46,167 nucleotides of DNA, taken from Bacteroidales bacterium (GTDB taxonomy: Bacteria > Bacteroidota > Bacteroidia > Bacteroidales > F082). Positions 378-46,167 of this stretch are shown piece after piece. Within the stretch, counting starts at the first letter, position 1. Each line of letters starts with the position of its first letter. The notes beneath the pieces were generated by a model. The model did not search any database. It had not been told where the DNA came from and saw only the letters and a program-made list of their open reading frames with translations. The DNA lies in contig JAFSJF010000065.1 in assembly GCA_017439405.1 (NCBI GenBank), positions 1-46,167 of the forward strand, in the 5' to 3' direction. Made by a program: the position numbers and the translations under genes.

Positions 378-405
378 TTGACGGGGCCTTGAAATAATCT
401 ATATT
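378..405 (+). promoter_or_regulatory. Sigma70-type promoter for candidate structured RNA
   Basis: TTGACG at 378-383, a 16-base spacer, and TATATT at 400-405. The -35 context (ctattgacgggg) matches that of the cassette promoters at 1470 and 2819. Transcription would begin near 411, just at the first paired strand of the RNA described next. Confidence 0.65.
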
Positions 406-409
406 TCTA

Positions 410-1030
410 GCACCACCCATTGATTCGCAAAGCAGAATAAAAGATTTTTTGAACTCCCGTTTGTCTTTATGAGTTTTGCGATTCGTAAGGGTGGTGCCAA
501 ACGGGAGTTCTTTTATTTTGTCCCCGCACCGCTTGAATCTTGCGCGGCGGCGCGGGTCCAAACCGCCGGGGCCTTTCGGTGCAGGACGCAGGCAGGGGGC
601 TTCGGCAGGTGGCGCAGCGACACGGCATGTTGCGTACAAATTAAGGCCGTGAAGGGACGTTGAAAGAACAACGGCGGCAACGCCGATGTTTTCCGACCTT
701 GACAAATAGACCAAGGGCACCGCCGGAATCAATAAAGGCGGCGCGAAATGGGCGAGCGAGCCGAAGGAATGGCAGCGATGCACGGACTTTTCGGCACACC
801 TTGAAACGGGGTGAGAAACGGCAATCGCAGGGCGTGACCGTCCTTGTGCATTCCTACCTTTTTTCAAAAAGCACCCGCGGACGTTACCGCCATGATTCCC
901 ACCGCCCTTGCGTGGTGCTGGCGTTTCGACGTTTGTGCAAGTAGCTTAATGGTACTTGCCGGAGATAAAGACCGCGATCCGACCGGGTGTTTTCTCTTTC
1001 CGTCCTTTTCCGTAAGGGCGGATTGTCCCC
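410..1030 (+). ncRNA. Candidate large structured noncoding RNA (about 600 nt)
   Basis: GC-rich, gene-free, preceded by a promoter and full of complementary segments. Crossing helices at the 5' end: 410-418 with 489-497 (9 bp) and 451-463 with 498-510 (13 bp), so strand 489-510 pairs without a break with two separate strands. Further stems: 621-626/646-651; 672-676/681-685 closed by a GCAA tetraloop; 697-701/712-716; 720-724/737-741; 797-802/808-813; 779-787 with 840-850; 870-875/914-919; 922-924/929-931 with a UUCG loop; 937-943/953-959; 999-1007/1014-1022. Phages of gut bacteria are known to carry large ornate RNAs (GOLLD, ROOL) of this size near early genes. Membership in either family cannot be decided by eye, and the 3' end is not certain because no clear U-run follows the last stem. 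Confidence 0.55.
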
Positions 1031-1080
1031 GCTCACCTCCCAAGTGTTTAATTTATTGGGTATATTGTATTTTAATTTAC

Positions 1081-1109
1081 TTGCATAAATGAAAATAAAT
1101 TTCTATATT
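1081..1109 (+). promoter_or_regulatory. Promoter of the 1135 gene
   Basis: TTGCAT at 1081-1086, 17-base spacer, TATATT at 1104-1109, set in very AT-rich DNA and followed by a GGAG ribosome binding site ahead of the ATG at 1135. It separates this small gene from the upstream RNA region. Confidence 0.6.
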
Positions 1110-1134
1110 TGAAAATAAAAATGGAGATTGATAA

Positions 1135-1386
1135 ATGGCTATCGGACAAAGTAAAGAAAGACTTGCAGCGGTAAGGAAACACTATCCCGATGACGAATTA
1201 TTGGTTGCTGCATGCGATCACCTTTTTAACTTATTCGACAAGGAAGATGACCTCAAGCGAGAAATCAAGGTGAGCAACGGGGCTTGGGTCCACTTCTTGC
1301 AGGGAAAATCCCGTCAAGGTGTGCGGCTGGCAATCATCCACCGGGCGGCTAGGACGGCCATTCATGACTGTTTGCTTGGTCACTAA
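1135..1386 (+). CDS. Small hypothetical protein, 83 aa
   Basis: Not recognised. The protein is soluble and mixed-charge, with an acidic middle (FDKEDDLKRE) followed by a basic stretch (QGKSRQGVRLAIIHRAAR), so it may bind nucleic acid; this is a guess from composition. The ATG is preceded by GGAG with good spacing and by its own promoter at 1081. It is a one-gene transcription unit: a hairpin with a T-run follows at 1410. Lying between the candidate RNA and the first regulon cassette, it may be an early regulator. Confidence 0.65.
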   Translation: MAIGQSKERLAAVRKHYPDDELLVAACDHLFNLFDKEDDLKREIKVSNGAWVHFLQGKSRQGVRLAIIHRAARTAIHDCLLGH

Positions 1387-39089: not shown

Positions 39090-40450
39090 TTGGAGGGTCT
39101 TTTCATCCTCTTTGCCTACAGGTCGTTATCCTCTTTTTGACGATTGATGACCGGGCAAACGGATCAAGACAGTACAACACCGGGGGCGGCAAGTTAAGCC
39201 CCTTGAGCGGGTCCTTGTCTATTGCGGCGGCGTGGATATGGGCACCCGCCTTCTTTGTAAGTTCCGAACGCGGCTACCTTTACGGCTGGCAGGGGCTCGC
39301 TTGGTTCATAGTCCCGAATGTGCTCTGCCTTTTATTGTTCGCGCCGTTTGCGGACAAGGTGCGGCGCATTTTCCCGGCGGGTGTCACCTTGTCCGGGTTC
39401 ATGGAAATACGCTACAAGTCCCGCGCCGTGGGCAACGTTTACCGCTTCCAGTTGGGGGCCTTGGCAATGTTCTCGACCGGGGTGCAGTTGCTCGCGGGCG
39501 GGAAGGTTCTTTCGGCGGTGACGGGCGTTCCTTTTTGGCTCATGACCTTTATCTTGTCCTTGATAGCGTTTTCGTATTCGCAGCGGGCCGGGATAGTATC
39601 GAGCGTAAAGACGAACGCCTTACAAATGCTTCTGATGCTCCTTGTGGCCGTTTTAGCGGTTGCCCTTACTTTCACCCTCGAAGGCACCGAAACGGCCCGT
39701 GATGGGCTTGCTGGCGTGTCGAATTTTGTCGGATGGGAACTTGCCCTTGCCTTCGGCATCCCGAACGCGATAGGGCTAATTAGTGGCCCGTTCGGGGATC
39801 AAAGTTTTTGGCAGCGGGCATTCTCGATTAAAAGAAAATCCGTGTTCAAGTCTTTCGTTTTCGGGGCTATGCTTTTTGCGGTGGTCCCGTTGTCAATGGG
39901 AATTATCGGCATTGTCGCGGGCGGCATCGGCTTCGCTGCAAATGACCCGTCATTCGTGAACCTTGAATTTATAAACGGCTATTTCCCGCCGTGGTTCATG
40001 GCCCTATTCCTAGTCATGATCTTGAGCGGCCTTCTATCGTCGGTGGATAGCAACCTTTGTTCGGTTTCGTCGCTGGCTTCGGATTTCCGGGGCGACCTCA
40101 AGACGGCGAAGTTTTCGATGCTCGCGCTCTTGGCTTGCGGCATCCTCATTGCGAACATTCCGGGCATCACCGTGACGGGCCTATTCCTTTTTTACGGCAC
40201 GTTGCGGGCTTCGACCTTGTTTGTAACCTTGCTTACCTTGTCGGGAAAGCGGCTCGCTGCAAGGGGTGTTTTTTACGGCGTTGTGTTGTCGGTTCTTGTC
40301 GGCTTGCCTGTTTTCGCATTCGGAAGCGTTGCGGACATTCCCGAAATGAAGGTGGCCGGGTCCGTTCTTTCGGTCGGTATTTCGGGAGCGTTCGCCCTAA
40401 TCTATACGGGAAGGATGAAGAAAAATGAAGATTACCAAAGTAAACATTGA
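39090..40450 (+). CDS. Sodium:solute symporter-like transporter, damaged or frameshifted at the start
   Basis: From TTG 39137 the frame codes 437 aa with about twelve hydrophobic spans. GPFGDQSFWQRAFS and SGLLSSVDSNLCSVSSLASDF are family-like positions of SSS (LeuT-fold) carriers. The first span is outside this frame: 39090-39137 reads LEGLFILFAYRSLSSF in the frame that meets TGA at 39138. Adding one T to the CTCTTTTT run, or a -1 slip there, joins the two parts in order (SSF then LTIDDRAN). Neither start has a good ribosome site. It may be a recent pseudogene, a slippage-switched gene or a frameshifted gene. Substrate unknown. It overlaps the ParB gene by 26 bp. Confidence 0.7.
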
Positions 40451-43746: not shown

Positions 43747-44946
43747 ATGGAAAAAAAACACTCTTACGAAAAAGTCAAAGTTTCCGACTTGAGGGATTAT
43801 GAGCGGAACGCCCGCACTCATTCGGAAAAGCAGGTCAAGCAGGTTGCCGAATCTATCAAGCAGTTCGGATTCACGAACCCGGTCTTGATTGATTCAGAAA
43901 ACGTTCTTATCGCGGGGCATGGACGCTTGAAGGCCGCAAAGATGCTAGGCCTTGAAACGGTCCCCGCGATACGTGTAAACGGGCTTACAGAAACGGAAAT
44001 AAAGGCCTTGCGAATAGCGGACAACCAAATTGCGCTCAATAGCGGATGGGATGAAGATTTGCTTGCGCAAGAGTTGAACGACATTAGGCTTGACGATTTC
44101 GACCTTGATGTTATCGGCTTCGATGAAGATTTCCTTGACGGTCTTTTGTCCGATGATGAACAAACTAATAACGACAACGAAGCAGCCGAAGCCGTGCCCG
44201 AAAAGCCCAAGGCTTTACGGGTCAAGAAGGGAGATGTTTGGATATTGGGGGAACATCGCCTTTGTTGTGGTGATTCCACGAAAAAAGAGTACGTGGAAAA
44301 ACTGATGGTCGGCGAGAAAGCAGATTTGTTTTTAAGCGATCCGCCTTATGGAATAAATGTTGTCACAAATAAAGAACCAATAGAAACGGATGAAGAAGGG
44401 GTCGGCGGCGGCAATATCGTAAATGGTAATAATTACGTTCCGATTATTGGCGACGATTCGACAGAATCGGCAGAAAAATCATATAAATTAGCGTGTGAAT
44501 ATACAACCGAACAAATTATTTTTGGTGGAAACTACTTTACAAAATTCCTTCCGCCTAAAAGATGTTGGATTGTTTGGGATAAACAGAATGGCGAAAATGA
44601 CTTTGCAGACTTTGAATTAGCTTGGACTTCGTTTGACAAATCGGCGCGTTTGTTCAAATATCTATGGAATGGAATTGTTAGAGAAGGAAGCAAAAAAGTT
44701 GAAGGTAAAAAAAGAGTTCACCCGACACAAAAGCCCGTAGGGTTATTGGTGCAAATCGTTGAAAAACTTTATCCAAAATGCGAGAGTATTCTTGATTTGT
44801 TTGGCGGCAGCGGTTCTACTCTTATTGCTGCGCAGAAACTTGACAAGAAATGTTTCATTATGGAATTAAGCCCCGATTATTGTGACATTATCATTGACCG
44901 TTGGGAAGAATTTACGGGAAAGAAAGCGCACAAGGAAAATAAATAA
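43747..44946 (+). CDS. ParB-DNA methyltransferase fusion (beta-class N4/N6)
   Basis: 399 aa. Residues 1-140 form a ParB-like domain (NARTHSEKQVKQVAESIKQF, IAGHGRLKAAKMLGL, LRIADNQIALNSGWDED). The methyltransferase half has catalytic DPPYG (198-202) before the AdoMet motif LDLFGGSGST (about 350), the beta-class order. It would methylate adenine or cytosine amino groups and protect phage DNA from restriction or mark it. The catalytic half (from about base 44330) is more AT-rich than the ParB half, a sign of domain exchange. No clear ribosome site is seen; the ATG lies 20 bp after the terminator. Confidence 0.85.
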   Translation: MEKKHSYEKVKVSDLRDYERNARTHSEKQVKQVAESIKQFGFTNPVLIDSENVLIAGHGRLKAAKMLGLETVPAIRVNGLTETEIKALRIADNQIALNSGWDEDLLAQELNDIRLDDFDLDVIGFDEDFLDGLLSDDEQTNNDNEAAEAVPEKPKALRVKKGDVWILGEHRLCCGDSTKKEYVEKLMVGEKADLFLSDPPYGINVVTNKEPIETDEEGVGGGNIVNGNNYVPIIGDDSTESAEKSYKLACEYTTEQIIFGGNYFTKFLPPKRCWIVWDKQNGENDFADFELAWTSFDKSARLFKYLWNGIVREGSKKVEGKKRVHPTQKPVGLLVQIVEKLYPKCESILDLFGGSGSTLIAAQKLDKKCFIMELSPDYCDIIIDRWEEFTGKKAHKENK

Positions 44947-45316: not shown

Positions 45317-46167
45317 ATGACAAAGGAAATGAAATCGAAAAAATATGCAGGTGTTTTTTATAGGGACTTGGCAAACGGCGACCGCTCGTATTTCTTGCGC
45401 TTGAGAATTGGCGGCAAGATAAAGCGTTTTGCGATAGGCAAGAAATCCGAAGGCGTGACCGAAGCGTTCTGCAATCAAGAGAAAATCCGAATTGTGAACG
45501 AATCGAAATTTGGCAAGGGCGTTGCGGCAGACCTGCAAAGGCTTTCGAAGGTGCTGCCTTCTTTCGTCGATATGGTCGATTTCTACATACAGACTTCTCA
45601 ATGTGCAGAAGGAACTAAAAAACAGGTGCTTTACTTGAAGAACGAACCTATTGCGGAAATACCGAACCCGACAAGGTACGATATACAACAGTTCTTGCTG
45701 AAAGAACTCTCACGCATAAAGCCGGGAACGGTAAACCTCAAGATGAAGCGCATCCGTGGAGTTTACCGCCATGCGATAGCGCACGGCTTTTACAACGGCG
45801 AGGACCCGACCTTCGGCATGAAGCCTTTTAAGGGAGAGGAAGCACGGCGGCGTTCGCTTTCGCACGAAGAAATAGTTACCTTGCTCGAAGCGTTCAAGAA
45901 AAAGCCGCGTCACTATCTATTCTTGAAGATAGCGTTATGCACGGGAGCGCGGTCCGGCTCCATCCTACGCATACATAGGCACGACATAAGGGATGACGGG
46001 CGCGTTATTTTGTTCAACGAAAAGACGGACCAGCGGCAAGGGTTGCCAATTTGTACGTATTGGCAATGGACCTACAAAGGCGCTTATACGTTACCGAAAG
46101 AAGGACCTAGACGAATGGCTTGCTGGAAACACAGTGAGGACCAACGGGGGCCAATGATGCGCACGAA
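45317..46167 (+). CDS. Tyrosine recombinase, N-terminal two thirds, running in frame into an XRE domain
   Basis: The frame continues from the window end into bases 142-334 of the closed circle (347 aa). Residues 10-60 form an arm-binding-like domain (VFYRDLANGDRSYFLRLRIG), 85-170 the core-binding helices, and 180-235 the start of the catalytic domain with Arg212 in CTGARSGSIL and Lys in FNEKTD. The HxxRH, second His and Tyr motifs are missing; after about residue 240 the likeness stops and XRE begins at 281. It cannot be catalytic in this form. It may be a DNA-binding regulator made from an integrase, or a gene cut at an attachment site. GGGGG precedes the ATG. Confidence 0.75.
   Translation, partial: MTKEMKSKKYAGVFYRDLANGDRSYFLRLRIGGKIKRFAIGKKSEGVTEAFCNQEKIRIVNESKFGKGVAADLQRLSKVLPSFVDMVDFYIQTSQCAEGTKKQVLYLKNEPIAEIPNPTRYDIQQFLLKELSRIKPGTVNLKMKRIRGVYRHAIAHGFYNGEDPTFGMKPFKGEEARRRSLSHEEIVTLLEAFKKKPRHYLFLKIALCTGARSGSILRIHRHDIRDDGRVILFNEKTDQRQGLPICTYWQWTYKGAYTLPKEGPRRMACWKHSEDQRGPMMRT
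46027..46167. repeat. Terminal direct repeat, right copy
   Basis: Exact second copy of bases 1-141. It should be removed when the circle is closed; position 46026 is then followed by position 1. Confidence 0.9.

Follow-up and report, generated by a model that had tools for sequence, protein, structure and literature searches.

A candidate new class of large structured noncoding RNA upstream of a small protein gene in phages

The window analysed here is a stretch of 46,167 nucleotides (nt), contig JAFSJF010000065.1 of assembly GCA_017439405.1 (Bacteroidales bacterium). The contig is probably that of a temperate myophage; its genes include those for a terminase, a portal protein, capsid protein E and baseplate protein J, as well as a below-cutoff match to an integrase. 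On its plus strand a sigma70-type promoter is followed by a GC-rich stretch of ∼632 nt without conserved gene (410-1041) and then by a gene for a protein of 83 amino acids. We find that this stretch encodes a structured noncoding RNA with homologues in five other phages, and we regard it as virtually certain that these sequences constitute a structured RNA class.

The single sequence folds only modestly well (z of -2.68 on the plus strand and -2.31 on the minus strand), which says little on its own, so homologues were needed. With the 83-amino-acid protein as query, four contigs were found in IMG/VR (L021, L022, L023 and L024), and all four have an alignable copy of the RNA upstream of the small protein gene. 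Three scans of IMG/VR with patterns taken from conserved pieces of the RNA, which do not depend on the protein, returned the same four contigs and no others; a scan with the window's own pseudoknot as pattern found none. Relatives of the terminase are encoded at 16 IMG/VR loci. A covariance model of 878-1026 (149 nt, hereafter R1) was searched in 17 records, these 16 loci plus the relative phage locus L036, and gave a real match in four, the known ones, in addition to two 18-nt matches of 9.9 bits.

R1 did not detect in these records a sixth, strongly diverged homologue, which lies in IMG/VR 3300012983_000069 (G598) on the minus strand from ∼11,834 down to 11,320 (hereafter L064). The terminase of G598 is 83% identical, and 3′ of its RNA lies a gene for a protein with 41% identity to the small protein. 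L064 has the same architecture as the window RNA in different letters. It was seen by eye first, and its helices were matched by eye; MAFFT alignments of it are poor outside a 16-nt loop. Its fold has a z of -6.0 against 60 shuffles. The RNA is seen, then, in six phages, five of them reached through the small protein or its neighbours.

The window and the four closer homologues were placed in an alignment of 651 columns, the 5′ part of which was laid by hand to fit helix P3. All possible helices of at least four pairs were listed on it and compared with column shuffles that keep the relatedness of the sequences. Nine helices show at least two two-sided compensations (mean 0.49 and maximum 3 in 100 shuffles), and three helices have at least three, a number of compensations seen in no shuffled helix. 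RNAalifold gives -411.7 for the plus strand and -378.7 for the minus strand, thus favouring the plus strand; 60 column shuffles of the plus-strand alignment average -305.7 (standard deviation 8.4), which corresponds to a z of -12.6. Because the hand-laid part leans towards P3, the analysis was redone on a MAFFT-only alignment. It yielded eight helices (mean 0.6, maximum 2 in 50 shuffles) and a z of -10.0 (40 shuffles); for the part after the U-run described below, the values are seven helices (mean 0.48, maximum 4) and a z of -9.0. In the five-sequence alignment 13 helices and a kissing pair have at least one two-sided change each. Compensations thus exceed those in a null that preserves relatedness, as expected for a conserved structured RNA.

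That the stretch is no RNA at all, and instead a GC-rich spacer, a coding stretch or a DNA element, is hardly credible. Open reading frames of up to 167 codons can be listed across the region, but all frames in each of the five sequences have at least two stops, the internal indels are 1, 3 and 4 nt long, and changes are spread evenly over codon positions. The G-U pairs, the preference for the plus strand and the compensations argue in the same direction.

An earlier note on this DNA had postulated a large ornate noncoding RNA of a phage, and homologues and phage genes bear this out. Its gene-free GC-rich stretch stands with an extent corrected to ∼410-1041, as do the sigma70-type promoter before it (common to all five aligned loci and, by eye, to L064), the two crossing helices at its start (P1 and P2 in Table 1) and the absence of a conserved protein frame. 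Compensatory changes in the homologues are found far above the level of column shuffles. Its claim of GNRA and UUCG loops was right in part: a GNRA loop is conserved, whereas none of the UUCG-like runs forms a tetraloop in the consensus structure.

Table 1. Features of the locus. Positions are those of the window; helices are given as 5′ strand/3′ strand, and cells are pairing cells of the five-sequence alignment.
Feature	Positions	Strand	Evidence or remark
Sigma70-type promoter, TTGACG-16-TATATT	378-405	+	TTGAC and TATATT kept in 5/5 aligned loci; by eye also in L064
Structured RNA	410-1041	+	Conservation, covariation, noncoding tests
P1 and P3, one long hairpin	410-418/489-497 and 422-433/473-484	+	P1: 43/45 cells; P3: 54/55 cells, two-sided change in 11/12 pairs
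P2	451-463/498-510	+	64/64 cells, 2 two-sided changes; also in L064
U-run, terminator-like, directly after P2	511-520	+	8-9 T in 10, all six sequences
P4 hairpin	523-533/546-556	+	51/55 cells, 4 two-sided changes
P5 hairpin	565-574/597-606	+	6 pairs with two-sided changes
P6	621-625/647-651	+	25/25 cells, two-sided change in 3/5 pairs
Long-range helix closing the multibranch core	654-658/1025-1029	+	25/25 cells, 1 one-sided change
Long-range helix, end bases common to neighbouring helices	658-664/925-931	+	35/35 cells, 1 two-sided and 2 one-sided changes
P7 with GNRA loop 677-680	665-670/687-692 and 672-676/681-685	+	Alignment, covariation
P10 with inner GCA/UGC	760-767/788-795	+	40/40 cells, 2 two-sided changes in 8 pairs
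P11	801-806/862-867	+	30/30 cells, two-sided change in 4/6 pairs
P12	880-886/919-925 and 888-894/911-917	+	35/35 cells each
P13	937-943/953-959	+	33/35 cells, 2 two-sided changes
Proposed long-range pairing, loop CCGCCCUU/arm AAGGGCGG	902-909/1014-1021	+	8 pairs
Gene for 83-amino-acid all-helical protein	1135-1386	+	Next to the RNA, on its 3′ side, in each of the six phages

Comparison of the homologues shows an RNA of three modules: an H-type pseudoknot at the 5′ end with a U-run behind it, two kissing hairpins, and a closed multibranch core with a conserved C-rich loop. In the first module 11 of the 12 pairs of P3 have two-sided changes and 54 of 55 cells pair (in the hand-made alignment); the letters of P3 differ widely between phages while its pairing is kept. 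P1 pairs in 43 of 45 cells, its two outermost pairs being broken in L023. P2 crosses the P1/P3 hairpin in an H-type pseudoknot, the 3′ strand of P1 being immediately followed by the 3′ strand of P2. L064 has its own version, with P1 as UAGCUACC/GGUAGCUA, P3 as UGACAACA/UGUUGUCA and P2 as AGCACUUGUCAAG/CUUGGCAGGUGCU, then AUUUUUGUUUU.

A stem of 12-13 base pairs and then a U-run in every sequence could also mean that the locus holds two units: a pseudoknotted small RNA of ∼110 nt (410-520) that stops at an intrinsic terminator, and a second structured RNA that arises when transcription reads through it, with P1 plus P3 and P2 as the alternative folds of an attenuator. In each of the six sequences the best folds with P1 and P3 and those with P2 indeed differ by no more than 2.4 kcal/mol. 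We consider this arrangement unlikely, if still a serious contender. The loop of P2 (26-34 nt) is long for a terminator, and a standard scan (loops of 3-8 nt) made no call; the gapless passage from the 3′ strand of P1 to that of P2 in five of the six sequences (L023 being the exception) fits stacking within one pseudoknot; and P1 and P2, having no bases in common, need not exclude each other. The first module is ambiguous: it may be a genuine pseudoknot at the head of a single long RNA, or else a terminator that acts conditionally and yields an RNA of ∼110 nt along with some read-through.

In the second module a strand in the loop of P4 (538-543) pairs with one in the loop of P5 (581-586). This kissing pair is complete in the five-sequence alignment (30/30 cells) with one two-sided change, and reads UCUUGC/GCAGGA in the window. 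In L023 its sequence is UCAUGC/GCAUGA, and the counterpart in L064, identified by eye, is GAUUAC/GUAAUC. Between the window and L064 three of its pairs are changed on both sides, one is changed on one side and two are unchanged. The UUCG of this module sits in the 3′ strand of P5.

The third module is held together by the long-range helices of Table 1. The loop of P7 is conserved as GCAA, GUAA or GUGA, and a GCGA loop at 775-778 in P10 is conserved as well. Helix 612-616/845-849, one of the nine covarying helices, was left out of the adopted structure. Closing helices near 607-619/1030-1040 have no clean support in the five-sequence alignment. A 16S-like UCACCUCC near 1033-1040 was dropped because L021 lacks it.

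P12 ends in a C-rich apical loop of 16 nt, AUUCnnACCnCCCUUG at 895-910. L064 keeps the loop at 13 positions, on a 7-base-pair stem (AAUAAGG/CCUUAUU) whose pairs, relative to the window, comprise four with a two-sided change, one with a one-sided change and two that are identical. A loop pattern derived by comparing the two sequences is present in one of the 13 records without a strong R1 match, namely G598. It also occurs in six of 99 same-genus genomes (against one for the reversed control); the five matches outside the window were put down to chance because their flanks have no stem.

With cmscan the whole window has no match to Rfam at gathering thresholds, and the loci of five relatives (L029-L032 and L036) yielded no RNA-family match except a tRNA in L036. 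A permissive run (E≤10) on the window, L031 and L064 gave four, one and five matches, all far below gathering scores; these (e.g. microRNA models, best E 0.022) were rejected as not plausible. The earlier note had suggested a relative of ROOL or GOLLD, or a new class, and a check against covariance models. In that check the ROOL model (RF03087, 574 positions) was silent on our sequences and recognized the pMP118 copy, our positive control, at 130.4 bits, so a ROOL copy probably would have been seen; it was likewise silent in all 99 same-genus genomes, as it was in 14 control genomes. GOLLD, OLE and HEARO have no Rfam match in the window or the relatives, by models run without a positive control, and kinship with GOLLD found no more backing than that with ROOL. 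As far as Rfam goes, the RNA thus appears to be a new class. Literature searches, with limited coverage of subscription journals, turned up no paper on such an RNA.

Phage setting and size are those of ROOL, for which PMC12286853 describes an imaged example of 659 nt. Both are large noncoding RNAs of phages or prophages with pseudoknots and kissing loops. ROOL is often found near tRNA islands, whereas ARAGORN found no tRNAs in the window, and the window RNA differs further in its 5′ pseudoknot followed by a U-run and in its constant small protein neighbour. It resembles GOLLD in that identity rises towards the 3′ end, but is shorter, and the lack of tRNAs in the window sets it apart from GOLLD as well. 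OLE RNA, presented in PMC12054373 as ∼600 nt, highly structured, tied to protein partners and described from extremophiles and anaerobes among the Bacillota, is comparable as a large structured RNA family; here too Rfam gave no match. That our RNA belongs in diverged form to ROOL, GOLLD or some other large family already known is, in view of the silent models at gathering thresholds (window, L029-L032) and the lack of any plausible match at E≤10 in three homologues, very improbable, with the reservation that only the ROOL model has been seen to work.

As to the boundaries of the RNA, the promoter pattern taken alone is at chance level (one found, shuffle mean 1.0). The expected transcription start in the window would lie within ∼3 nt of the first base of P1; in L064 P1 starts 14 nt after the -10 element. 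The 3′ end (∼1041) is placed where conservation stops, and around it no terminator was seen. The RNA ends ∼90 nt before the small protein gene. Between them lies a conserved -10-like TCTATATT (1102-1109), and the gene seems to have a promoter of its own.

The small protein has 83-87 amino acids across the phages (the gene is cut by the contig end in L024). Its structure model has five helices with a pLDDT of 89.6, and its sequence is one that we take to be helix-turn-helix-like; helix-turn-helix proteins are among its weak fold matches. With Pfam at E≤10 the window copy has no match and five members have only two weak unrelated families. No match to the protein was found in the phage records. 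The RNA precedes the protein gene in six of six phages while the gene upstream differs: on the RNA's upstream side there is a helix-turn-helix gene in the window, L021, L022 and L024, no match in L023, and in L064 a gene for what looks like a DnaC-type helicase loader (all partly by eye). The constant order of RNA and protein with a changing upstream side suggests a cassette, but among relatives located by way of the protein or the phage; copies of the RNA in other settings could therefore be missed.

The same constant order, with no terminator seen between RNA and gene, is what one would expect if the RNA were a cis-acting leader controlling the protein gene. We hold such a leader to be improbable: the gene seems to own the promoter marked by TCTATATT, the stretch just after the RNA varies between the aligned loci, and a leader of 630 nt would be exceptional. 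A pseudoknotted RNA adjoining a small protein gene also recalls the type III antitoxins ToxI and CptI, with the small protein in the place of the toxin. The window RNA is far larger than these and has no repeats (no tandem arrays in 380-1150). Type III toxins are larger than 83 amino acids and mostly have beta folds. The small protein is all-helical in its model and has no significant fold match, and neither a ToxN-like nor any other Pfam match was found for the window copy. A toxin-antitoxin system of this kind therefore has very little to recommend it.

We favour an RNA that works in trans as a phage scaffold or as the RNA of a ribonucleoprotein, on the grounds that the structure is large and begins at about the expected start site, that it ends ∼90 nt before a gene seemingly with its own promoter, and that its shape is kept more than its sequence. 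That it is a free-standing transcript, made from the promoter at 378-405, is probable; the trans-acting role we put forward tentatively, at slightly less than an even chance. The adjacent helical protein would regulate or bind the RNA, the U-run may let only part of the transcripts reach full length, and the C-rich loop would dock at another site, perhaps the 3′ arm, either within one molecule or between copies. At its most specific, the proposal is of a new phage ribonucleoprotein encoded by a two-gene cassette, in which copies of the RNA pair loop to 3′ arm and so build a homo-oligomer whose sequence is not related to that of ROOL or GOLLD; this we think quite doubtful. ROOL and GOLLD themselves are described in PMC12286853 as building RNA-only cages of unknown purpose.

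The proposed pairing of loop and arm competes with a local hairpin, 1000-1007/1014-1021. Both are invariant in the five sequences (40/40 and 38/38 cells). As bare 8-nt duplexes the loop-arm pairing is the stronger (-15.3 against -11.4 in the window, -16.1 against -9.9 in L064), and in both sequences the local partner of the arm forms a U-G pair at the position that differs between them. Several observations weigh against our explanation. The loop-arm pairing rests on a single compensating difference, one pair changed on both sides in L064 (CCCCCCUU/AAGGGGGG). The local fold as a whole hairpin reaches -13.4 in the window and -33.0 in L064, which disfavours the swap in L064 and makes the loop-arm pairing a weak proposal; on this account we lowered our estimate for the oligomer from unlikely to its present level, and that for the overall mechanism from an even balance to a shade below it, where it is still our best explanation. 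Only six sequences are known, five of them similar, and the pairing of RNA and protein is partly by construction, given that the protein served to find the four close relatives. The fold search with the protein was without significant match (E≥1.1 in BFVD, ≥3.3 in PDB).

Few large ornate RNAs are known, and the present one adds an unrelated phage family of about the size of ROOL and GOLLD. With the small protein as constant neighbour and a diverged homologue that pins down much of its structure, this family offers a direct handle on the role of such RNAs in phages, and the RNA is open to expression, probing, imaging and deletion.

Wider searches added no further homologue. In blastn the phage records gave seven weak matches, none over more than 7% of the query, and plasmids none. 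When whole genomes were searched with blastn, the genome of the window returned the locus itself; 91 of 199 genomes, this one included, had a match at E≤0.1, and the others were collectively taken as chance (the best other, E 1.1e-5, covers 46 bases at window 1085-1130, outside the RNA). Scans of genome contigs for the RNA gave nothing. R1 found only the window in the 99 same-genus genomes and, in 395 genomes of the phylum, the window and one uninspected match (E 0.033) treated as chance; a further profile, A6, found only the window in either set.

A strict pseudoknot descriptor, fitted to the copies already seen, matched only the window, L029, L030, L032 and L064 among 20 sources (309,081 bases), and had no match in 517,002 shuffled bases (one strand). 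The L064 site was the sole match in three stretches covering G598. The descriptor missed the known copy in L031 and L074 (the same contig). It had three matches in twenty genome loci (55,320 bases), among which is a copy of the window. A relaxed version matched many AT-rich loci and gave eight matches in 1,034,004 shuffled bases, and so is no finder on its own.

The ends of the contig carry an exact 141-base repeat (1-141 and 46027-46167), so the contig is probably complete, a closed circle of ∼46.03 kb. By eye, the integrase frame runs across the circle junction into a part that in relatives belongs to an excisionase-like gene. Among the 99 same-genus genomes the RNA occurs in one, the window's own bin (G000). 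The genes near the chance matches in same-genus genomes are presumably Bacteroidales-like, whereas Shine-Dalgarno-like sites and a promoter of the sigma70 type occur in the phage, and the contig may therefore be misbinned.

In the relative phage locus L036, where the RNA was not found in the fetched stretch, the tRNA is a tRNA-Thr in 317-390, followed, by eye, by a tRNA-like sequence with a long insert. Its stretch 560-1240 folds with a z of -2.36 though it overlaps a 129-codon open reading frame, and is possibly another structured RNA.

Elsewhere in the window, similar promoter/leader stretches (TATTGAC...TCTATATATAGAAACG...AACAAGAGGTAACAAAATG) precede two early genes, at 1470-1560 and 2814-2896, with matches in relatives. 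An odd piece of cargo in the late part is a sodium:solute symporter family protein (39137-40450; Pfam SSF, E 1.5e-12). At 43747-44946 a single protein combines a ParB N-terminal domain with an N6/N4 DNA methylase domain.
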